From IMG/VR virus record IMGVR_UViG_3300036853_000133, positions 1 through 61,570 of that record: 61,570 bases of DNA. One strand, written 5' to 3'. Under the pieces are notes generated by a model. The model had not been told where the DNA came from and searched no databases. It worked only from the letters and a program-made list of their open reading frames with translations. The DNA is from a virus. Both the position numbers and the translations under genes were made by a program. Positions 1 through 61,570 of the stretch are shown here, one piece after another (within the stretch, counting starts at the first letter, position 1; every line of letters begins with the position of its first letter).

Positions 1-38
1 GTCCCGGTTCGAAGGGTTTCGGACTTTTTACCCCCCCC
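1..38. other. left genome end, probable part of the cos packaging site
   Basis: This short stretch after the HNH stop codon has an eight-base C run on the plus strand (G run on the minus strand) and no gene. Reading the minus strand across a joined circle, the order is HNH, this G-rich stretch, the AT-rich stretch at the right edge, then small terminase. In cos phages of the HK97 type the packaging cut lies between HNH and small terminase, so I infer that the window ends are at or near the natural termini. No repeat is shared by the two ends, so a terminally redundant genome is not supported. Confidence 0.5.
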
Positions 39-434
39 CTATAGGAGGGTACGAGTAAGTTCCATTGCCATTATTGAATTTAATTTCAGATCGAGCACTG
101 ACGCCTTGCCTTGGGCAAAGCGCCGCTCAATGCGCCGCTTGACCACGTCATGGTGCGGCCTACACGAGGGTTGCCAGTTGCGCTCGTCCCACATCAGGCG
201 CTGGTCGCCCTTATGTGGAATGATGTGGTCTACAACGTCAGTGACAGAGACGCGGCCAACCGCTTCACACCCTAAGCACAACGGATGCTCACGCCTGAAC
301 CCTCTTGCCCTGTGATCCCATCGGGTATCGTATCCGCGCTCGCGTGCGCTGCCTCGATCTATCTCGGCTTGGCGCTTGGCTTGATCTAGTGTTCCAAGAT
401 GTGAGGGCCTGAAGCTCTGGGGTTTCGATGGCAT
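39..434 (-). CDS. HNH endonuclease adjacent to terminase/cos
   Basis: A 131-residue HNH nuclease. A CxxC pair (LCLGC, about residues 53-56) precedes the HNH core: DVVDHIIPHKGD (about 66-77), then the asparagine-containing NWQPSC and the HH pair of RPHHD, followed by a basic helix. Small HNH proteins beside the terminase genes are known to be required for specific DNA cleavage and packaging in HK97-like phages. Across the closed circle the next minus-strand gene is the small terminase, which supports a packaging role. It lies downstream of the tiny membrane-protein gene at 439-588. Confidence 0.9.
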   Translation of the reverse strand: MPSKPQSFRPSHLGTLDQAKRQAEIDRGSARERGYDTRWDHRARGFRREHPLCLGCEAVGRVSVTDVVDHIIPHKGDQRLMWDERNWQPSCRPHHDVVKRRIERRFAQGKASVLDLKLNSIMAMELTRTLL

Positions 435-438
435 CTAC

Positions 439-588
439 TTAAGACAGTGAGCGTCGCATCGAGAACGCGATTTGCTTCACCAGCAGGGGCAGCAAGTCTC
501 CAAACCAAATCAGCAAAACAATCGTGGCGCCCCCTGCGAAAGTAAAAGCGAGGATACCAGCGACAATGATGATCAATATGGTTCCCAT
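439..588 (-). CDS. 49-residue membrane protein, first gene of the late transcript
   Basis: A short ORF starting ATGGGAACC and ending TAA. The product is MGTILIIIVAGILAFTFAGG... with a long hydrophobic stretch (residues 3-37) and a basic tail ending RRSLS. It is probably a single- or double-pass inner-membrane protein of unknown function. It sits directly after the terminator at 604-627 and just before the HNH gene, so it would be the first gene read when late transcription passes that terminator. A 76-codon ORF in another frame (386-616) overlaps it but has a less protein-like composition; I prefer this frame. Confidence 0.6.
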   Translation of the reverse strand: MGTILIIIVAGILAFTFAGGATIVLLIWFGDLLPLLVKQIAFSMRRSLS

Positions 589-603
589 ACCCTATGAACG
601 ACA

Positions 604-627
604 AAGCCCGGCACAATGGCCGGGCTT
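604..627 (-). terminator. hairpin terminator between early and late genes
   Basis: A perfect 9-bp inverted repeat (aagcccggc, 6-nt loop, gccgggctt) lies between the NusG-like gene and the first late gene. On the minus strand a short T-rich run follows (CTTTGTC), so it is a moderate intrinsic terminator in the direction of both operons. Its position parallels tR' between antiterminator Q and the late genes of lambda. Confidence 0.7.
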
Positions 628-656
628 ATTGACTGGGGTGACGCCGCCCAACAGTA

Positions 657-731
657 GGTCAGACGGTATCTGACCGCGCGCTAGGTCCTGATTTCCTAGC
701 GTGTCGCCTTGGCGACTCAGCCTCTCGGCTG
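657..731 (-). promoter_or_regulatory. array of four hairpins upstream of the early/late terminator
   Basis: Four consecutive inverted repeats fill the gap after the NusG-like stop codon. In minus-strand order they are: 731-718 (5-bp stem, 4-nt loop); 716-703 (6-bp stem GTCGCC, 2-nt loop); 701-679 (7-bp stem CGCTAGG, 9-nt loop); 675-657 (6-bp stem GGTCAG, 7-nt loop). The terminator at 627-604 follows. Such a chain is more than chance packing and may be an RNA or DNA loading element for the neighbouring NusG-like factor; that role is inference. I saw no convincing promoter here. Confidence 0.5.
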
Positions 732-732
732 T

Positions 733-1338
733 TCAGGCTGGCTCGATCTGGTCTACGGAGGCGTATTGCTTGGAACTTCCGTTGAAGAGTTCGCACAACA
801 ACTCGATTCGCCCGTCGTCGTCAAGCCTGATGATCTTCATAACAATATCGGCCAACGGGCCTTCCACCATCCTGACGGGCTGACCTGGCTTGTACACGGA
901 ACCAGGCTTGGCCAGCTCAGCCGAGATGCGCTCGGCCTGGCGCAGCAACTCGACATCGCGAGGGCACAGGATGACGTGTTCCCCGTTCCGAACGTAGAAG
1001 CATCGGCCGTTCTGGCGCAGCCCATCGCAATTGTAGATCGGACCGAACCTCCAGCCACGATTGAGAGGCAGGAAGAGGTAGCCACGGAACAATGGCTTGA
1101 TCACCTCGCGCTTGCGCGTCGCGCTCGTTCGGCCGGATCGAACTCCGTAGTTTACGAGCTTGGTTTCCTTCGGCACGAACGGGTCAAAGCCCATGTCTTT
1201 CAGGTTCCGTTCCGCGCGAAGCTCTTTGTTCGGCTCTGTGAGCATCACGAAATAGCGCAGATCAACAACCGGGTCGCAACGCTCGATCAATGAACGAAGG
1301 TCCGCTGACTGTTCGAGCTTTTCCGTTGCCATCAGCAT
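733..1338 (-). CDS. NusG/RfaH-like transcription antitermination protein
   Basis: A 201-residue protein with the NusG layout. Residues about 27-130 resemble an NGN domain (YFVMLTEPNKELRAERNLKD, then RGYLFLPL, the usual core strand). Residues about 149-201 form a KOW-like domain (KPGQPVRMVEGPLADIV, ending YASVDQIEPA). Specialised NusG paralogues such as RfaH and LoaP bind RNA polymerase at a recruitment site and suppress termination in long operons. Here the gene is last in the early leftward operon, directly before a hairpin array and terminator and then more than 30 kb of late genes. The inferred role is late antitermination, replacing a Q-type protein. ATG at 1338 or 1332 is possible. Confidence 0.75.
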   Translation of the reverse strand: MLMATEKLEQSADLRSLIERCDPVVDLRYFVMLTEPNKELRAERNLKDMGFDPFVPKETKLVNYGVRSGRTSATRKREVIKPLFRGYLFLPLNRGWRFGPIYNCDGLRQNGRCFYVRNGEHVILCPRDVELLRQAERISAELAKPGSVYKPGQPVRMVEGPLADIVMKIIRLDDDGRIELLCELFNGSSKQYASVDQIEPA

Positions 1339-1379
1339 GTTCCCTATGTCCCTCTTCGTTGCGTGTAAAATTCAGAATG

Positions 1380-2231
1380 TCAGCGGTGCATGCGGCTTTC
1401 TTGCAACGCAGCTAGTTCGGGATCATCATACTCGCCAGACTCGCTCGCGGTCTCTCGGCGTGGTGGAAATAGCGTTGGAAACCACCATCCGGTTCGCTTC
1501 ACGCCGTCGATGATCATCGTTTTCGTCAGCGTCCAGCGAACGCGCTCAGTCGCGAGTTTGTGCGCCATCCAAGCGTCCCACGCTGGTGTTCCCATGTAGA
1601 CGAATATCGGTTTTGCGGCATCGGGATGCAGCGCGCCTTGGGGCACTAGCGGTGGCGCATGATATTTTCGGGGCGCGGCTGCGAATTGGCTCCCCGAATC
1701 CTTTTCTTTCTTGGATGGTTTAGTCTTGGAAGGTTCATCGAGACTCTTCCGCATGCACGCAGGTGCATGCGGACCGGATGCACAGGGAGACATTTCCACA
1801 GGCTCGGAGGCTGGTTCGGAGGTATTTTTTCCGTCGGCATGGCGTGCCGACGGCTCACCAGATATTGCGTCCGCGACCTCGATTTCATCGGGCTCGCTAC
1901 TTGCCGGTTCTTCCTCATTCGCGGTCGATTGCGTTCTGTCGCTTATCCATTCGGCCGGCGCTCGATCGAAGATAATCCAGTAGTCGCTGGCGCGCTGCTT
2001 GCCGTCTTCGGCCTTGCGCAGCTCCTTCCGGATGTAGCCGTTACGGATGAGATCGCCGACGAAGTTGAACACGGCGCGCGCCGAGCATGCGGCTTCCTCG
2101 CCGATTGTGTCGGCCTTAAGCCAGCAGTAGCCGGTCCGATGATCGGCATGATTGGCGATCGACACCAGGACCAGCTTCGGCCTGGCCGGCATGTCCTGTT
2201 CCAGCGCCCATGCGACGGCTTGGATGCTCAT
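1380..2231 (-). CDS. winged-helix replication-initiation-like protein
   Basis: 283 residues from the ATG that overlaps the upstream TGA (ATGA). The N-terminal 90 residues (MSIQAVAWALEQ, then KLVLVSIANHADH, RAVFNFVGDLIRNGYIRKE) have the helix-turn-helix form of phage replication O/DnaD-like proteins that choose the origin and load helicase. A long low-complexity Ser/Glu/Pro linker follows. The C-terminal part contains a WDAWMAHK...GWWFPTLFPP segment seen in many alphaproteobacterial phage and plasmid proteins. No helicase gene is visible, so host helicase is probably recruited. Confidence 0.6.
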   Translation of the reverse strand: MSIQAVAWALEQDMPARPKLVLVSIANHADHRTGYCWLKADTIGEEAACSARAVFNFVGDLIRNGYIRKELRKAEDGKQRASDYWIIFDRAPAEWISDRTQSTANEEEPASSEPDEIEVADAISGEPSARHADGKNTSEPASEPVEMSPCASGPHAPACMRKSLDEPSKTKPSKKEKDSGSQFAAAPRKYHAPPLVPQGALHPDAAKPIFVYMGTPAWDAWMAHKLATERVRWTLTKTMIIDGVKRTGWWFPTLFPPRRETASESGEYDDPELAALQESRMHR

Positions 2232-2629
2232 CGCGCAGCCTCGATCAGCCCGAGGCGTTTGGCACAACCCAAGAGCCGGCGACCGTCGCGCATGCGGAAG
2301 TATTTGTCGCCCTTGTTGTGAAGCTCAACGAGCCATGGCTCTTCGTCGTCGGTTAGATCCAGTCGGGCTTCGAAACAGCGCTGTAATACGGTGCTCAGAT
2401 TGAAGCCTAAAAGAACATCGACGGGCATCAGATCGTCTCGAATTTGCAAGAGCTTTTCCGCTTGGCGCGTGGAGAATTTGTCGGCGCGACTGTTTCGCGC
2501 GATGCTTTCGAGGAACGTCGTCTCCCATTCGCTGAGAGCGGTGCCGTAGACGTCGAAGACCCGTCGCGCCAACTTGCGGCACGCTTCCTGGTCTGCGCTG
2601 TAAGCGCTGATTTCTCGCCATGGAGCCAT
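2228..2629 (-). CDS. uncharacterised 133-residue replication-operon protein
   Basis: Starts MAPWREISAYSADQEACRKLAR. I prefer this start because the upstream in-frame extension is Ser/Arg-rich and antisense-like. The product is an all-helical-looking acidic protein (FLESIARNSRADKFSTRQAEKLLQIRDD). It has no motif I recognise. Its stop overlaps the start of the replication protein gene, so the two are translationally coupled and may act together. Confidence 0.65.
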   Translation of the reverse strand: MAPWREISAYSADQEACRKLARRVFDVYGTALSEWETTFLESIARNSRADKFSTRQAEKLLQIRDDLMPVDVLLGFNLSTVLQRCFEARLDLTDDEEPWLVELHNKGDKYFRMRDGRRLLGCAKRLGLIEAAR

Positions 2630-2699
2630 AGACAGTAGCGTCTCTTTCTTGCGAGTGTTTTCGGTTCGAACGCTACGCAACAGGATTGAAACGGAAGTG

Positions 2700-2945
2700 T
2701 CAGCGGATCGAGACTGTGTCGCCCCTTGCAATGCACGGCGGCGTGTGCTCGCACACGAACTGCATCGGATTATTCGGATGTCGCCAGGCTCTGACGTATT
2801 GCCCGTCAGGCTGATGGATGGTGATCTTCGTGATTTTGCATTGGCAGCATGGCTTTTCGTTCTGATCGCAGCCCGATTCAGAGTCGCATGCGGCAATGCG
2901 CTTCTCGTTGTCGTAGTCCCATTTGTGGCGGGTGGATTCGCTCAT
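2700..2945 (-). CDS. small cysteine-rich protein
   Basis: 81 residues with a CDQNEKPCCQCK cluster and a later CEHTPPC. These could bind a metal ion as a zinc ribbon. ATGA overlap with the upstream gene (stop 2942) supports the start. Function unknown. Confidence 0.65.
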   Translation of the reverse strand: MSESTRHKWDYDNEKRIAACDSESGCDQNEKPCCQCKITKITIHQPDGQYVRAWRHPNNPMQFVCEHTPPCIARGDTVSIR

Positions 2946-3508
2946 CGCTCACACCTCGCAAGACGATATCCGCCGCGCGCTCTTACCGGCTGAATCTGCC
3001 AACCCGTCGAGACGATCTTGCGCGAGAGATACCAGCAGATGCCGCGCACACTTTCGCGTGAGGTCTTGATCAAGCGGGCAAGTTCATCGCCTTCAGCGAA
3101 GTAGTCCGGATCGACGCTATAGAGATTGAACAGGCGAGAGAGGATCTGGGTTTGCTGTGTGCCGCCGATAGCGATCAGGACGGAACCGCAACTGAATTCC
3201 CCGGTCATGTAATTCCAGACCGGCTGCCCTTCTGGCATCTTGGCGCACTTCGCACGCTCAGCGGCAAGCGCGTCGCTTTTGACCTTGGCTGCGCGTTTGA
3301 GCTTTCTGTCGGCCTTGGCGGCGCTAATCTGCGCAGGTTCTTGAGGCGGTTCAACGACGGGTGCAGGCTTGCCAACGGGCCGATATTCGTACCCATGGTC
3401 GCGACAGATACGTGCAACGCGGTCTTCAGGCCAGCCGAGTTGATCGCCCGTTGCGCCGGCCTTGATGCGTCGCCATGTGGCGGGGTTGTTGGGGGCGGGC
3501 TCGATCAT
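2942..3508 (-). CDS. uncharacterised protein, possible DNA-binding
   Basis: 188 residues. The N-terminus (MIEPAPNNPATWRRIKAG) is followed by a segment around GWPEDRVARICRDHGYEYR that could form an HTH. A Lys/Ala-rich central helix comes next, and the C-terminal half (LSRLFNLYSVDPDYFAEGDELARLI) looks folded. Both ends overlap neighbours by ATGA. No family assigned. Confidence 0.65.
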   Translation of the reverse strand: MIEPAPNNPATWRRIKAGATGDQLGWPEDRVARICRDHGYEYRPVGKPAPVVEPPQEPAQISAAKADRKLKRAAKVKSDALAAERAKCAKMPEGQPVWNYMTGEFSCGSVLIAIGGTQQTQILSRLFNLYSVDPDYFAEGDELARLIKTSRESVRGICWYLSRKIVSTGWQIQPVRARGGYRLARCER

Positions 3509-13817: not shown

Positions 13818-14114
13818 ATGGGAGCCAGTCGCGAGTTTGCCACGCAGTACACGGAACCGACGATCATCCACGACATCTTTGCAAGCGGAGCTGCACATGC
13901 GGTCGCCATCAACGGCGGATGTGTGCGGCTGACCTGGTACGTCGATATCCCGCTGTTCACCCCGGATGGGGTTCTGGAACATCGCATCGTCGATCGCGTG
14001 GTGATTCCACAGGAAGCCATCCCTGGATTGATGCTGATGCTCGGCAGCGCGATGGTCACCCAAACAGAAGGGTTGTTTTCGATCGCTCGACGGGTGCCGA
14101 AGATCGGTCACTGA
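13818..14114 (+). CDS. hypothetical protein, 98 residues
   Basis: The product (TIIHDIFASGAAHAVAINGG, VRLTWYVDIPLFTPDGVLEH, VDRVVIPQEAIPGLMLMLGS) reads as an ordinary folded protein, unlike the antisense frame. It resembles small proteins of unknown function I associate with Hyphomicrobiales, without a named family. It converges with and slightly overlaps the HTH gene at 14108-14341. Confidence 0.65.
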   Translation: MGASREFATQYTEPTIIHDIFASGAAHAVAINGGCVRLTWYVDIPLFTPDGVLEHRIVDRVVIPQEAIPGLMLMLGSAMVTQTEGLFSIARRVPKIGH

Positions 14115-14341
14115 GCGGCCTCCGCACCAACGCGGGCGCCCCCGCCTCCAACGAACGCCATGATCGGAACGACTCCGCCCGTCGCTTCGCTGAGCTTCAC
14201 GGCCATGTTGAGCGAGGGCGTCTTCTTGCCGCTCAGGATTTCAGACAGGTAGGGCTCCGATAGCCCGGCAGCTTCGGCAAACCGAGCCTGCGAGGTGTTC
14301 TTTGCGATCCAGGCCTGAAGTGGATGCGGCGAATCATTCAT
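14108..14341 (-). CDS. Cro/C1-type HTH regulator, first leftward early gene
   Basis: 77 residues with an XRE-type HTH (QARFAEAAGLSEPYLSEILSGKKTPSLNMAVKLSEATGG, about 18-56). The predicted leftward promoter TTGACT-N18-TAAGTT (14378-14349) would start transcription at or one base from the ATG, giving a leaderless mRNA. It is divergent from the second HTH gene. By position it is the Cro-like or early regulator of the leftward operon. The Gly-rich C-terminus is too short for a classical CI cleavage domain. Confidence 0.8.
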   Translation of the reverse strand: MNDSPHPLQAWIAKNTSQARFAEAAGLSEPYLSEILSGKKTPSLNMAVKLSEATGGVVPIMAFVGGGGARVGAEAAQ

Positions 14342-14348
14342 GACCGAA

Positions 14349-14401
14349 AACTTAGCTATCGGCGAACATATAAGTCAAGAACGAAATTCGCTATCGGCGA
14401 A
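14349..14401 (-). promoter_or_regulatory. leftward early promoter with two operators (PL/OL)
   Basis: On the minus strand TTGACT (14378-14373), an 18-bp spacer and TAAGTT (14354-14349) form a good sigma70-type promoter. Operator O1 ttagctatcggcgaa (14352-14366) covers the end of the spacer and the first three -10 bases. Operator O2 ttcgctatcggcgaa (14387-14401) lies 8 bp upstream of the -35. The operators are 15-bp hyphenated palindromes of the form TTMGC-N5-GCGAA and their centres are 35 bp apart. O2 also sits just upstream of the divergent repressor gene. Confidence 0.8.
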
Positions 14402-14435
14402 TGGACCGTTCTCGCATACACTTCGACACTCGGGA

Positions 14436-14768
14436 ATGCCGCGACCGAACCGCAATTCCCGATCGAAGCCGCCCCGGCGCCTGTTCCTGGGTCTCTGGCT
14501 CAAGCGCTTGAACCGCAAGCAGGCCGAGATTGCGGAGGCGGCCGGGATCACTCCGACCTACGTTTCTGAGCTAGTCAATGATCCGGGCAAGAACCCGTCT
14601 CCCACGGTTTTGCTCGATATTTCAGAGGCTTTGGGCCTCACGGTGAATGACCTCTACAATATGCCCCCAGCCATCGAGGCAACCGAAGCCGCAGGCAAGC
14701 TCAACCCGGCTCAGCTCGCGACACTCGGGCGGCTTTTGGATGAGATGAAGCCGATCAAGCGGCGGTAA
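14436..14768 (+). CDS. HTH repressor between the operator pairs
   Basis: 110 residues from ATG 14436 (after CACTCGGGA); an upstream in-frame ATG at 14340 would run through both operators and is less likely. The HTH spans about 24-65 (LKRLNRKQAEIAEAAGITPTYVSELVND, then SPTVLLDISEALGLTVNDLYN). The C-terminal KLNPAQLATLGRLLDEMKP may mediate dimerisation. It lacks the LexA/CI self-cleavage domain, so induction by RecA would need another route. The gene is bracketed by two operator pairs, as cI is in lambdoid phages, so I infer it is the immunity repressor. Confidence 0.75.
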   Translation: MPRPNRNSRSKPPRRLFLGLWLKRLNRKQAEIAEAAGITPTYVSELVNDPGKNPSPTVLLDISEALGLTVNDLYNMPPAIEATEAAGKLNPAQLATLGRLLDEMKPIKRR

Positions 14769-14824
14769 TCTGATTTCATTTCCTTGAGAACGATCCGGGA
14801 ACATCAGACCTGTGGACAAATGAG

Positions 14825-14877
14825 TTAGCTAGTGGCGAATATTTCGCTTGACGGCTAGCTTCGCTATCAGCTAAGTT
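14825..14877 (+). promoter_or_regulatory. rightward early promoter with two operators (PR/OR)
   Basis: TTGACG (14848-14853), an 18-bp spacer and TAAGTT (14872-14877) form the rightward promoter. Operator O3 ttagctagtggcgaa (14825-14839) ends 8 bp upstream of the -35. Operator O5 ttcgctatcagctaa (14860-14874) covers the first three -10 bases. A weaker ttcgc...gctag site lies between (14843-14858). The geometry is identical to the leftward promoter, including the 35-bp spacing. Confidence 0.8.
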
Positions 14878-28601: not shown

Positions 28602-28630
28602 AGCCCGACCGCCATCTCTGACGATCGGGC
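28602..28630 (-). terminator. intrinsic terminator of the late leftward operon
   Basis: On the minus strand GCCCGATCG (28630-28622), a 10-nt loop and CGGTCGGGC (28611-28603) are followed by TTTTTCATTTT. This is a strong rho-independent terminator for the late operon, which ends at 28724. It has no T run on the plus strand, so it serves mainly the late genes. Confidence 0.85.
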
Positions 28631-28723
28631 CAAGTATGCGGGGACGCGAAAGCAGACCACAGACAGTGGACTGCTATGCCCGCTAGGGGCTACGGACGGC
28701 GACACGTGATCGCCGAATTAGAT

Positions 28724-36052: not shown

Positions 36053-37195
36053 ATGAACGTCGCCGCAAACACGAAATTACCGATCTCCCCCTATATCCAG
36101 GCAAATCCGACACTGTCGGCCCTCACGTCATTGCGGTTCATCGCCGCTGCCATGATCGTAGCGCTTCATGCCCAAGGCCATTTCGGCATCCCGGCAGGGA
36201 TCGCAAGCACCTATTCGCTCGGCGCAGGTGTAACGATCTTCTTCGTGCTGTCTGGGTTCATCCTGACTTACGTCTACCCGAACCTGCGTGCAAGCGGCGC
36301 GACGCGGCGTTTTCTGGTCGCGCGTGTTGCTCGAATCTGGCCGCTGCACGTAGCCTCCAGCCTATTCGTCATGTGGCTGTTCGGCTGGTTCCAACTCGAT
36401 CAGCAAAACGCCGCTTGGCGTATCGTGATCAACTTGACCATGACGCAGGCATGGATTCCGCTGGCGCAAATCGGTTCGATCAACGGACCGGCATGGACGA
36501 TCTCGACCGAATTCGGTTTCTATCTCCTGTTCCCGTTTCTGATCGCCGACTTCGCCAAGACTTGGTGGTGGAAGCTGTTGATATCCGCCGGTCTCGCTGG
36601 CGTCATGGTTGGTATCACCGCGGCATTTTCGATGCCCTTCGGAGGGAATGAGGGAGTGAACGGGGCCGCGCTTGTCTACATGCACCCCTTCGGCCGCCTG
36701 CTTGAGTTCGTCATCGGCATGTGCACCGCGTTGGCGTGGAGAAGTTTTAAGCCGGCGCGGTCGATGAATGTCTGGTACGGCACCGCGATCGAAATTTCTG
36801 CCGTCGGTGCACTGTTCCTGAGCATCCAGCATCTAACCTTAGGGGACATCAACAATCCGCTGATCCGATGGTACCATACTTCGCTTGAGCCAGCCATGCC
36901 GGCCGCAGCGCTGATCTTCGTGCTCGCCTCCCGCTACGGATGGATCAGCCGCGCGCTCGAATTCAAATGGATCGAGACGCTCGGAGAGGCATCGTATGCC
37001 ATCTACCTCTTACATATGCCGCTGCTTTTGTACTATTGGGGCGTGATCGCGCCATCTCAGGTGCCGCAGTGGGCGCAGCTTTCGATATATTTGTGCGTAC
37101 TTCTAACGGTATCGTTTGTCTTCTGGCAGGGTATCGAGAAGCCAGCGCGCAGAACACTTGTGCGCACGTTTGGCTGCGGCACTCAGTACAACTGA
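36053..37195 (+). CDS. oac-like: acyltransferase family 3 (O-acetyltransferase-like)
   Basis: 380 residues with about ten hydrophobic helices. The N-terminal signature of family 3 membrane acyltransferases is clear: LTSLRFIAAAMIVALHAQGHFG, TIFFVLSGFILTYVY, RFLVARVARIWPLH, and later NGPAWTISTEFGFYLLFPFL, ASYAIYLLHMPLL. Catalytic His and Arg residues of these motifs are present. Homologues in P22-like and Shigella phages acetylate O-antigen and alter phage adsorption. Orientation against the late operon is typical of a moron expressed in the lysogen. Confidence 0.9.
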   Translation: MNVAANTKLPISPYIQANPTLSALTSLRFIAAAMIVALHAQGHFGIPAGIASTYSLGAGVTIFFVLSGFILTYVYPNLRASGATRRFLVARVARIWPLHVASSLFVMWLFGWFQLDQQNAAWRIVINLTMTQAWIPLAQIGSINGPAWTISTEFGFYLLFPFLIADFAKTWWWKLLISAGLAGVMVGITAAFSMPFGGNEGVNGAALVYMHPFGRLLEFVIGMCTALAWRSFKPARSMNVWYGTAIEISAVGALFLSIQHLTLGDINNPLIRWYHTSLEPAMPAAALIFVLASRYGWISRALEFKWIETLGEASYAIYLLHMPLLLYYWGVIAPSQVPQWAQLSIYLCVLLTVSFVFWQGIEKPARRTLVRTFGCGTQYN

Positions 37196-55577: not shown

Positions 55578-55653
55578 TCACGCCTCCTGCCAAAATCAGG
55601 TCCGCCCGAAGACGGACCTGACTGCTTGGTTCATTCGTCGAAACGAATGCGAC

Positions 55654-59035: not shown

Positions 59036-60853
59036 TCAACCAGGCTTCATGGACTTCAGGAAGTCGTCCAGGCTTTCGCCCTTCGGACCCATCGCGAGGG
59101 CCTCTGCCATGACGGCAGCGACGATTCCATCGATCGATTGCTCGGAGCGCTTCTTCGCCGGCACAAAGTTCATGTTTTCGTCAAAGCGCACGTGGCAGTG
59201 CTGGATCATCCAGCGTGCGATCGGGTTGCCGCCGTGGTCGATCGCGCCGCCAAGAATCTTGCGCTCGAATTCCTTGGTCGGCGGCCCAAGCGTCTTCGTC
59301 CCGAATCGCAACTCAAGGAACAGATCTTCAGGCAACGGCCGATCATCGGTCTGCGGATTAACGAGTTCGGTATAGAACGGCAACGCCTGGAACGGATCGT
59401 ATCCGACCTTAGTCACATTCCACCGCGCGAGGCTCTTGCGAACTTCCGTGATGGCATAGCGAAGCTCAAAGACCTCACCGGGAATGGAAACCAAAAGACC
59501 GGACTTGACCCAATACGCGAACTCGTTCTGCAGGTTCTCCGCCCGACCGCGCCTCGCGATCGTCGCTTCGGGCAAGAAGAATTTCCACAAAAACTTCGGG
59601 CGCTCGCCATGCTTTAGAGGTTCGAACCGCCAGCACATCGCCGCGAAGTCGAAGTTCTTCGTGGAGTCGAATGTCAAAACACAGGAGCGACCGTCCGCGA
59701 TACGATCCTCAGACCCCGTGTCGTACCAACGCCGCCACGCCTCCTTGTCTTTGACGTCGTCGCGACATGCGTCCCACTTCGAAACCGGTATCCACCGGAC
59801 CAGATCCTCAATCCACTGATTGAGGTGATATCGGCGGAACTCAGCTTCTGCTCGCGGACTCTCCAGCGCCTTGGAACGCTCTCCATGCAAGAACTTCATC
59901 GTCGGCGAGAGGCCGATTGACGGATTCACGCGAGCGATAAGCTTGTCGTCCTTCCAATCTTCCTCATCACCCGCGGCGAAGAGCACCACCATGATCGACG
60001 GATCATCGAGACGACCGTCGAGTAGCTTCTCGGATTCCTGATAGAGTTCGCGCCCAACAACCTGCGTCTTCAATCCGGCTGTTCCGGCATAGAGACGCAT
60101 CGGTTGGAGCTGCGCACCTTCGCCTTGCCGGAGCGCGTCGGCGAGCGCACGTGAGGCCCACTCTTCCATTTCGTCGCCGACCGTGACGGCCGGGGCGCGA
60201 CCTTGCTTGCCCTTCGCCTTGCCCGGCATCAACCGGAACGGCGCCTTGATCTTCTGGACCCAGAGCTGGCGGTTGAGAACGCGAACTGACTTCTTCATCG
60301 TCGGCGAGTTGCCGACCATATCTCCCATTTTGTCGAAGACTTCGCGCGCCTGACTCTCGTCGTGGGCGAACACGAACCCGGTAGCGCGATAGGTGCCCTC
60401 GTAATACCAGAAGTACAGCGCGAGCGCAGCGAAGAATTCCGACTTTCCGTTCTTGCGCGGCACCCAGAGCCGCAATTCCTGGAACAGTCGGACGTGAACG
60501 GTCGTCGGCTTCAGCGTCTCAGGATCGAGTATCTCAGTCGGCGCCTTCCAGCCAACCAGAAGGCGGACCGTAACCTCTTGCCAGAACAGCAGGCGAAACG
60601 GCTTGCCTGCGAATCGCAGCGTCGTGAGCGTGAACCAGCGAGGAAACTGCTCAACGACGCGATCGGCTTTCTTGGCATCGAACCACGAGCCAGGAACACG
60701 CGAAGCACGCTGCCAGTTCTGGCGCGCCCAACCCCAGCCGAATTCATCGGCTGCCTGCGTAATCCATTCCGGCTCAGGATGAAGGCAGGGAGGCGACGCA
60801 GACAGCAGTGACGTTTCGTGTTCGGTCGAAGACGCGACCTCGATCAATTCCAT
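59036..60853 (-). CDS. terL: terminase large subunit
   Basis: 605 residues. ATPase domain with a Walker-A-like PRKNGKSEFFAALAL (about 133-147), Walker B acidic VGDEMEEW (about 226-233) and an RNaseH-like nuclease with CVLTFDSTKNFDFAAM and KVGYDPFQALPFY. The C-terminal conserved ARWMIQHCHVRFDENMNFVPAKK follows. Motor and nuclease of packaging. Confidence 0.95.
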   Translation of the reverse strand: MELIEVASSTEHETSLLSASPPCLHPEPEWITQAADEFGWGWARQNWQRASRVPGSWFDAKKADRVVEQFPRWFTLTTLRFAGKPFRLLFWQEVTVRLLVGWKAPTEILDPETLKPTTVHVRLFQELRLWVPRKNGKSEFFAALALYFWYYEGTYRATGFVFAHDESQAREVFDKMGDMVGNSPTMKKSVRVLNRQLWVQKIKAPFRLMPGKAKGKQGRAPAVTVGDEMEEWASRALADALRQGEGAQLQPMRLYAGTAGLKTQVVGRELYQESEKLLDGRLDDPSIMVVLFAAGDEEDWKDDKLIARVNPSIGLSPTMKFLHGERSKALESPRAEAEFRRYHLNQWIEDLVRWIPVSKWDACRDDVKDKEAWRRWYDTGSEDRIADGRSCVLTFDSTKNFDFAAMCWRFEPLKHGERPKFLWKFFLPEATIARRGRAENLQNEFAYWVKSGLLVSIPGEVFELRYAITEVRKSLARWNVTKVGYDPFQALPFYTELVNPQTDDRPLPEDLFLELRFGTKTLGPPTKEFERKILGGAIDHGGNPIARWMIQHCHVRFDENMNFVPAKKRSEQSIDGIVAAVMAEALAMGPKGESLDDFLKSMKPG

Positions 60854-60859
60854 GACGCA

Positions 60860-61486
60860 TCAGTTCGGCCGATCGACTGGAGGCATTGAGTCAAATTCTG
60901 ATCCCGCTCCGATTCCGTCGTCATCGTGAACTGGCGCGGCTTCATCGCCAGTATTCGGCGATCGCCCGAGCGGACCCCACTCATCCGATCCGCCTCCGGC
61001 AGAGGCGAACTCGCGCTCCAGAACCGCACGATCAAGTGCGGTCAGTCCGAAGCGTTTCGAAAGCTCAAGCACCCGCTGTGACGCCACATCGCGGATCCCG
61101 ACCGCGGGGTTCGTCCAAGGACGCATCCCGCCAGCCGTGGCCTTGGCCATCTTGGAGAAGCCGTTCTTCTTCACGTCGGAGTCGGCTGCAAAGAACTCCG
61201 CCTGGTAGACGCAGTACATCGCGAACGTCAGGCGATCGAGGGCGCCGAGAAAGTGGTTCTTGTGCAGCAGCGCTGCGCACGCATGCCAGATCGCGAGAAC
61301 ATCCTTATAGAGCGGTGCCAGCATGAACGGCGGCGCGGCAAGCTGATCGCCGCCATCGGCCGGGATATCCGCGAGCAGCTTTGCGCGGGCGTCCGCCTCT
61401 TCGATAAAACGCTCTACCTTTGTCCTGCGCTTGCCAGGATTGCCCTTTTCCCGCTGATCACGCGGGTTATCTCGCCGACGACCCAT
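60860..61486 (-). CDS. terS: terminase small subunit (P27-like)
   Basis: 208 residues. Basic N-terminus (MGRRRDNPRDQREKGNPGKR), helical middle (YKDVLAIWHACAALLHKNHF, DRLTFAMYCVYQAEFFAADS) and the LSKRFGLTALDRAVLE segment of P27-type small terminases. It recognises the packaging site, which should lie in the AT-rich stretch just upstream. Confidence 0.88.
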   Translation of the reverse strand: MGRRRDNPRDQREKGNPGKRRTKVERFIEEADARAKLLADIPADGGDQLAAPPFMLAPLYKDVLAIWHACAALLHKNHFLGALDRLTFAMYCVYQAEFFAADSDVKKNGFSKMAKATAGGMRPWTNPAVGIRDVASQRVLELSKRFGLTALDRAVLEREFASAGGGSDEWGPLGRSPNTGDEAAPVHDDDGIGAGSEFDSMPPVDRPN

Positions 61487-61570
61487 CTGCCTTGCCGGGC
61501 AAGCCCGACCCTCCGTATTTGGTCTCGCAAAAAAAATATCCGCCGGATTTCGCGTAAAAATTTTCGATTT
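61487..61570. other. right genome end, probable terminase recognition region
   Basis: Upstream of the small terminase ATG there is a hairpin cgggcaagcccg (61497-61508), an A8 tract (61530-61537), the hyphenated palindrome atccg-c-cggat (61539-61549) and aaaatttt near the very end. A-tracts and small palindromes next to terS are usual in cos/pac sites. Together with the G-run end at position 1 this supports natural termini here. Confidence 0.5.

Follow-up and report, generated by a model that had tools for sequence, protein, structure and literature searches.

How does transcription pass from the early to the late genes of a temperate phage whose early operon ends in a NusG-like gene and whose late genes begin directly behind a terminator-like hairpin? 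This question is raised by the window, the stretch of 61,570 bases of viral DNA, an IMG/VR record, that we analysed as a whole. Its layout points to a little-studied form of late-gene switching by reading through a stop signal.

Early operon, NusG paralogue and late unit

The early unit of the window lies on the minus strand. It starts at 14.3 kb with a Cro-like gene (14108..14341(-); phrog_35, 1.2e-7), continues with genes for a beta clamp, two methyltransferases and an O-like replication initiator (1380..2267(-); phrog_270, 5e-14, and nine more replication/helicase-loader families), and ends, directly downstream of the initiator gene, with an ORF for a NusG-like protein of 201 amino acids (733..1338(-)). 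Around the repressor and Cro-like genes, a repeat search found four 18-nt operator-like repeats (14349..14874, no strand assigned), arranged as two pairs with a spacing of 35 bases within each pair. No E. coli-type promoter match was found on the Cro side.

The preliminary description had called the last early gene a NusG/RfaH-type factor, which is borne out both by its place in the operon, behind the Cro-like and initiator-like genes, and by its protein matches. The protein exceeds the gathering score of Pfam NusG (E = 2.3e-6), which identifies its NGN domain, and matches phrog_6386, 'transcription antiterminator' (3e-11). Its predicted structure (AlphaFold, 53 sequences; mean pLDDT 84.9) shows an NGN domain and a beta-barrel C-terminal domain. 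Among second-look structure matches, this model came closest to RfaH bound to the ops-paused elongation complex (100 residues at an rmsd of 1.9 Å, Z 12.0), and the modelled C-terminal beta-barrel aligned with the C-terminal domains of NusG and RfaH (Z about 9), which marks it as a predicted KOW domain. Pfam KOW itself found no match in the window protein and was present in 19 of 57 aligned family members, 55 of which matched Pfam NusG. In the NCBIfam ranking, UpxY (1e-9) was followed by RfaH (1e-7) and LoaP (0.002), all under the curated subfamily cut-offs (38.6 vs 100, 32.0 vs 144.5 and 18.3 vs 125 bits, respectively). The housekeeping nusG model was absent at E ≤ 0.01, and the protein matched NusG-type families only, with no match to the Q sequence family. 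Judged from sequence and predicted fold, the product is a NusG paralogue. No direct relatives were found in the viral contigs, genome contigs or phage records searched; the nearest NusG relative, from locus L142, is 31% identical. A profile scan with the NusG alignment found no conserved stretch.

Beyond the boundary, the late genes follow on the same strand. The first late ORF (439..588(-)) encodes a hydrophobic protein of 49 amino acids with no PHROG match, and the second an HNH endonuclease (39..434(-); phrog_2323, 4.2e-29) that adjoins the record end. From the other end of the record, the order continues with the small terminase (60860..61486(-); Terminase_4, 3e-10), the large terminase (59036..60853(-); phrog_9, 3.5e-104), portal, protease, major head, neck, tail and lysis genes, until tandem terminator-like hairpins found by hairpin search close the unit (28603..28675(-)). 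A first late gene immediately after the terminator and a late block of about 33 kb had both been claimed, and both were recovered: the ATG of the 49-residue ORF lies 15 nt past the terminator stem, and the unit, running from 604 to 1 and then from 61570 to 28603, measures about 33.57 kb. Two further features lie inside it. One is an O-acetyltransferase gene on the plus strand (36053-37195(+)), likely a surface-modifying cargo gene; the other, immediately after the major head gene, is a strong terminator-like hairpin of 13 bp (55594-55623(-)).

The record end between the HNH and small terminase genes recurs in relatives. In the related contig L017, a leading sequence that we take to be sequencing adapter gives way to a base identical to the window end, and 14 of 115 related loci likewise begin 560-940 bases before the large terminase gene. 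On the evidence of these coinciding ends, the record end is a physical (cos) DNA end, so that late transcription would cross cos, as in lambda.

The hairpin array behind the NusG gene

The preliminary description had placed four hairpins and a terminator in the 130 bp behind the NusG gene, and four perfect hairpins and a terminator-like hairpin do lie within 130 nt of its stop codon. In minus-strand order, these are a 5-bp hairpin evident from both fold and sequence (718..731(-); CAGCC-GAGA-GGCTG) and, from the fold, a second 5-bp hairpin (703..716(-)), a third of 7 bp with a 9-nt loop (679..701(-)) and a fourth of 7-8 bp (657..675(-)), with the loops GAGA, CAAG, a 9-mer and a 3-mer. The terminator-like hairpin, located by stem and fold search (597..627(-)), has a 9-bp stem (627-604) followed by TGTCGTTC (minus strand, 5'→3'), with a weak U-tract. 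The 145-nt hairpin stretch folds at -65.5 kcal/mol (z = -3.7), and none of 200 shuffles was equally stable; the first 100 nt past the NusG coding sequence, with the stop codon included and the terminator stem left out, gave z = -3.56. Scanning each strand in 4,096 windows at a step of 15, we found five disjoint perfect hairpins per 135 nt in no minus-strand sliding window and in one on the plus strand, at the same place. The hairpin cluster behind the NusG gene is the densest in the genome.

Our terminator scan of the window did not list the stem 627-604 because few T's follow it; the terminator criterion applied to this stem also counts the T's that close it. Its sequence is nearly the same as that of the first terminator of related phages. 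A search with the exact 30-nt terminator pattern found no match in viral contigs, and Rfam gave no match in the window at gathering thresholds. The four hairpins had no homologue among the leaders retrieved from related loci and, as the closest NusG relative is only 31% identical, they gain no support from comparison.

NusG genes, terminators and leaders in related loci

A scan with the large terminase returned 9 loci, and in all 7 with enough upstream DNA a NusG-like gene precedes the HNH, small terminase and large terminase genes. A wider terminase profile added further viral and genome loci, the latter mostly from Alphaproteobacteria. Iterated HMM searches then placed a NusG-like gene in 54 of 115 related-terminase loci, a set that contains duplicates (for example, L020/L097 and L059/L108), so that the locus counts are not independent. 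All 54 genes lie on the terminase strand, with their stop codons 1.1-2.3 kb upstream of the terminase gene; they were found in 49 of the 88 loci with at least 3.5 kb of upstream DNA and in 5 of the 27 with less. The remaining loci with enough upstream DNA have other genes in this place. Across 39 loci without NusG (for example, L058 and L113), other conserved small genes precede HNH in the NusG slot, presumably with the label DUF6362 for the other gene found there; they may be other late regulators. L009 and L030 carry a NusG-like protein in which inspection by eye revealed no recognisable KOW domain beyond the NGN domain, and no strict terminator lies behind the gene.

Applying one strict terminator rule to the 54 NusG loci and the window, we found a terminator at most 350 nt after the NusG stop codon in 33 of 55 loci, often two or three of them, compared with 115 of 1,978 other windows (p = 2.8e-25, with relatedness ignored and control windows that are mostly coding) and with 1-5 of 55 in each of ten Markov shuffles. 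The other 22 loci, the inspected Mesorhizobium-like leaders among them, had no strict terminator. A fairer but weaker comparison is that of the 350 nt before HNH, where 28 of the 54 NusG loci and 12 of the 38 lacking the gene had a terminator (p = 0.059). As NusG-less loci have them too, terminators before HNH are a general mark of the early/late boundary, not one peculiar to NusG loci. Under a lenient rule (ATG, GTG or TTG; ORF of at least 40 residues), the median distance from a terminator stem to the nearest start codon downstream is 13 nt (40 loci).

The short distance behind the terminator bears on the source of late transcription. In the window the first late ATG follows the stem by 15 nt, and in several other loci HNH-like starts follow it by 15-18 nt, which leaves no room for an intervening promoter. 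Neither strand gave a promoter-like match in 1-3000 or 60900-61570, although the consensus used was that of E. coli. Both observations weigh against the possibility that the terminator merely ends the early operon, with the late genes served by a downstream promoter of their own, for example inside HNH or close to cos, and with the NusG paralogue aiding the late-unit polymerase or acting on the host. Such an arrangement would fit the boundary terminators of the 12 NusG-less loci, and a promoter of a different type might lie unseen in the 150-nt small ORF or in the cos gap, but it does not account for a leader that, in one group of loci described below, covaries as RNA and stays with NusG. We therefore consider it unlikely. 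We also considered, and rejected, the idea that a promoter might lie within the 3' portion of NusG; the small peaks of synonymous-codon identity seen there were judged to be due to a conserved TTC codon.

Leader sequences differ among NusG clades. In group A (the Bradyrhizobium group), the window's own clade, the leaders of the 8 loci inspected mostly show, in this order, a stem-loop, a GCGAAGC hairpin and a first terminator, whose stem, AAGCCCGGCC, is close to that of the window. The motif G(C/T)GCG(N)AAGC or GAGC recurs in 16 of 40 leaders outside group B, compared with 130 of 3,625 windows, and is absent from the window leader; as a set, leaders outside group B are more stably folded than random segments (p = 1.4e-6). 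Short direct repeats occupy the stretch from NusG stop to terminator in two loci, ATCACG five times in L019 and CCCCGATCACA in L136.

Group B is a single clade, mostly from Rhizobium and relatives, including Sinorhizobium. Here, 115-185 nt after the NusG stop codon align across 16 loci and 5 phage records (phi2LM21, phi3LM21, Nsp-JY10, Rivra and PPF1). One helix of the predicted fold is long-range; the fold also has inner hairpins, a hairpin that contains an inner stem, and a short hairpin of the form GC-GNAA-GC. Of the cells, 90.8% were paired, compared with 20.9-44.4% when the structure was slid by 1-3 columns, a figure that favours this structure because it was derived from the same alignment; double-change cells numbered 64, compared with a shuffle mean of 22. 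The folding energy of the first 100 nt in group B was not distinct from that of controls, so the case for this element rests on covariation, and the compensatory changes favour RNA over non-template DNA as the signal in group B. Searched against 100 sources (1.3 Mb), the covariance model matched at 22 sites, each immediately downstream of a NusG gene; 21 of these sites had gone into the model, and the sole new match, L037, lies near L069 in the protein tree. The model found no match in the Bradyrhizobium group, the Mesorhizobium-like group or the window, whose leader stayed without a match at E ≤ 1. Thus, the comparison with related phages that had been proposed for the hairpins yielded a covarying leader in the Rhizobium/Sinorhizobium group, and no relative of the window's own four among the retrieved leaders.

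The late modules that follow this leader vary. In phi2LM21, phi3LM21 and PPF1, the next recognised gene after the leader encodes a minor tail or neck protein instead of HNH, and phi3LM21 has a phrog_15 large terminase that shows no similarity to that of the window or of L100; the NusG-like proteins of phi2LM21 and phi3LM21 match phrog_6386. That NusG protein and leader stay paired before different late modules speaks against a role in packaging and points to the leader as a target in cis of the NusG paralogue. As far as alignments can tell, the group B leader is a covarying RNA element tied to the NusG gene, not to the late module.

These observations also bear on two other readings of the hairpins. 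As they lie no more than 0.75 kb from the cos end, they might be part of the packaging (cos) site, but the DNA end is two genes away, between HNH and small terminase, and in the Rhizobium group the leader also persists where the terminase is unrelated, so that we see next to no prospect of this. They might otherwise form an mRNA 3' end, a small RNA or a NusG autoregulatory site with no role in late transcription. Precedent for a small RNA exists in the same gap: a Bradyrhizobium phage carries an MmgR/suhB-family small RNA (RF00519, 67.7 bits, gathering 41; L005:8459-8538(+)) between the first terminator behind NusG and HNH, and similar sequence was seen by eye in L006, L022, L023, L098 and others. 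The MmgR-like core is absent in the window, which also has no Rfam match at gathering, and the NusG-leader pair recurs before unrelated late modules; we rate this reading as highly improbable.

A proposed late switch and its relation to known systems

Overall, we consider it probable that the window encodes a processive-antitermination late switch, at the position of Q and built on a NusG paralogue. In this model, for which we infer the early promoter, binding, loading site, read-through and processivity, a polymerase from a Cro-side early promoter would transcribe the early operon including its last gene, that of the NusG paralogue. In the absence of the paralogue, the terminator downstream of its gene would halt polymerase. 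After its synthesis, the paralogue would bind the elongating polymerase as it passes the leader, with the hairpin-rich leader RNA or the matching non-template DNA as loading signal, and would displace or bypass the function of host NusG/NusA. The polymerase would then pass the terminator and transcribe the late unit of roughly 33 kb.

In lambda, Q is the last early gene and is followed by a terminator and the late genes, transcription reads through cos, and Q loads at a promoter. The window regulator likewise is the final early gene, with a terminator before the late genes, as for lambda Q, phage 21 Q and AlpA. However, Q-type factors are unrelated to NusG and load at their own promoter, as reported for AlpA and phage 21 Q (PMC7969949, in the part available); the window leader contains no sigma70-like match, although the consensus used was that of E. 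coli.

RfaH, the source of the nearest solved structures for the window NGN domain, also antiterminates long operons. Its targets are distant operons, whereas the putative target in the window adjoins the NusG gene, and the C-terminal domain of the window model is a predicted beta-barrel, not the helical form of free RfaH. The GC-GNAA-GC mini-hairpin of other leaders, not the window's, recalls the ops hairpin loop as described in the accessible text of PMC5995543; no ops-like element with up to 2 mismatches was found in the window leader (604-732). For LoaP, which acts on the dfn and mln operons of Bacillus velezensis, the sections seen of PMC12691694 describe a leader with a small RNA hairpin and then an intrinsic terminator before a very long operon. 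Both systems thus combine a NusG paralogue, a leader hairpin with terminator and a very long operon, but LoaP recognises a UNCG-loop hairpin, of which there is none in the window leader, and serves Gram-positive antibiotic operons, not a phage late unit. Loading on an elongating polymerase is closer to the behaviour of RfaH and LoaP than to that of Q, to judge from the portions available of PMC12691694, PMC5995543 and PMC7969949, and by analogy the proposed switch, started from an early promoter, would resemble them more closely. A Q-like late switch made of a NusG paralogue and its cognate leader, as first suggested, is thus supported in part: comparison strongly favours it through gene order, terminators, the covarying leader and the close late ORFs, and it is qualified by the terminators before HNH in loci that lack NusG, by the window hairpins, which have no homologue among the retrieved leaders, and by a probable mechanism nearer to RfaH/LoaP than to Q.

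A leader can also act by itself. HK022 put RNA suppresses termination in a phage through hairpins and needs no phage protein (PMC9378689, as far as seen), and the strong hairpins directly upstream of the window terminator would suit an antiterminator RNA of this kind, for which the NusG paralogue would be unneeded. Yet in every locus seen the group B element comes with a NusG gene, a pairing that an autonomous put-like RNA would not need, and leader sequences vary between NusG clades; we think such a put-like leader very unlikely and prefer the NusG-dependent switch.

In the literature searched, which covered few subscription journals, we found no description of a phage NusG paralogue as a late switch. 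The parts seen of a NusG review mention phages for N, Rho and silencing (PMC7819879). phiLM21-like prophages carry a named 'transcription antiterminator' beside HNH before the late genes, annotated by similarity in a description that, in the part available, does not mention leader, terminator or mechanism (PMC12429752). Late-transcription switching in Alphaproteobacteria phages was little described in the same literature. On balance, we lean towards the broader view that in many temperate phages of Alphaproteobacteria the late genes are controlled by a phage NusG paralogue with its own leader RNA as target. Next to N/Q-type proteins and put RNA, this would be a third design, in which protein and leader have co-diversified into several specificities, with a hairpin array in the window and a covarying multi-helix element in the Rhizobium group. 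If true, this would be a widespread answer to late switching and would offer naturally occurring pairs of protein and RNA in which target choice by NusG paralogues can be studied, as small test systems for a laboratory reporter strain, each consisting of the protein and a leader of about 130-200 nt.
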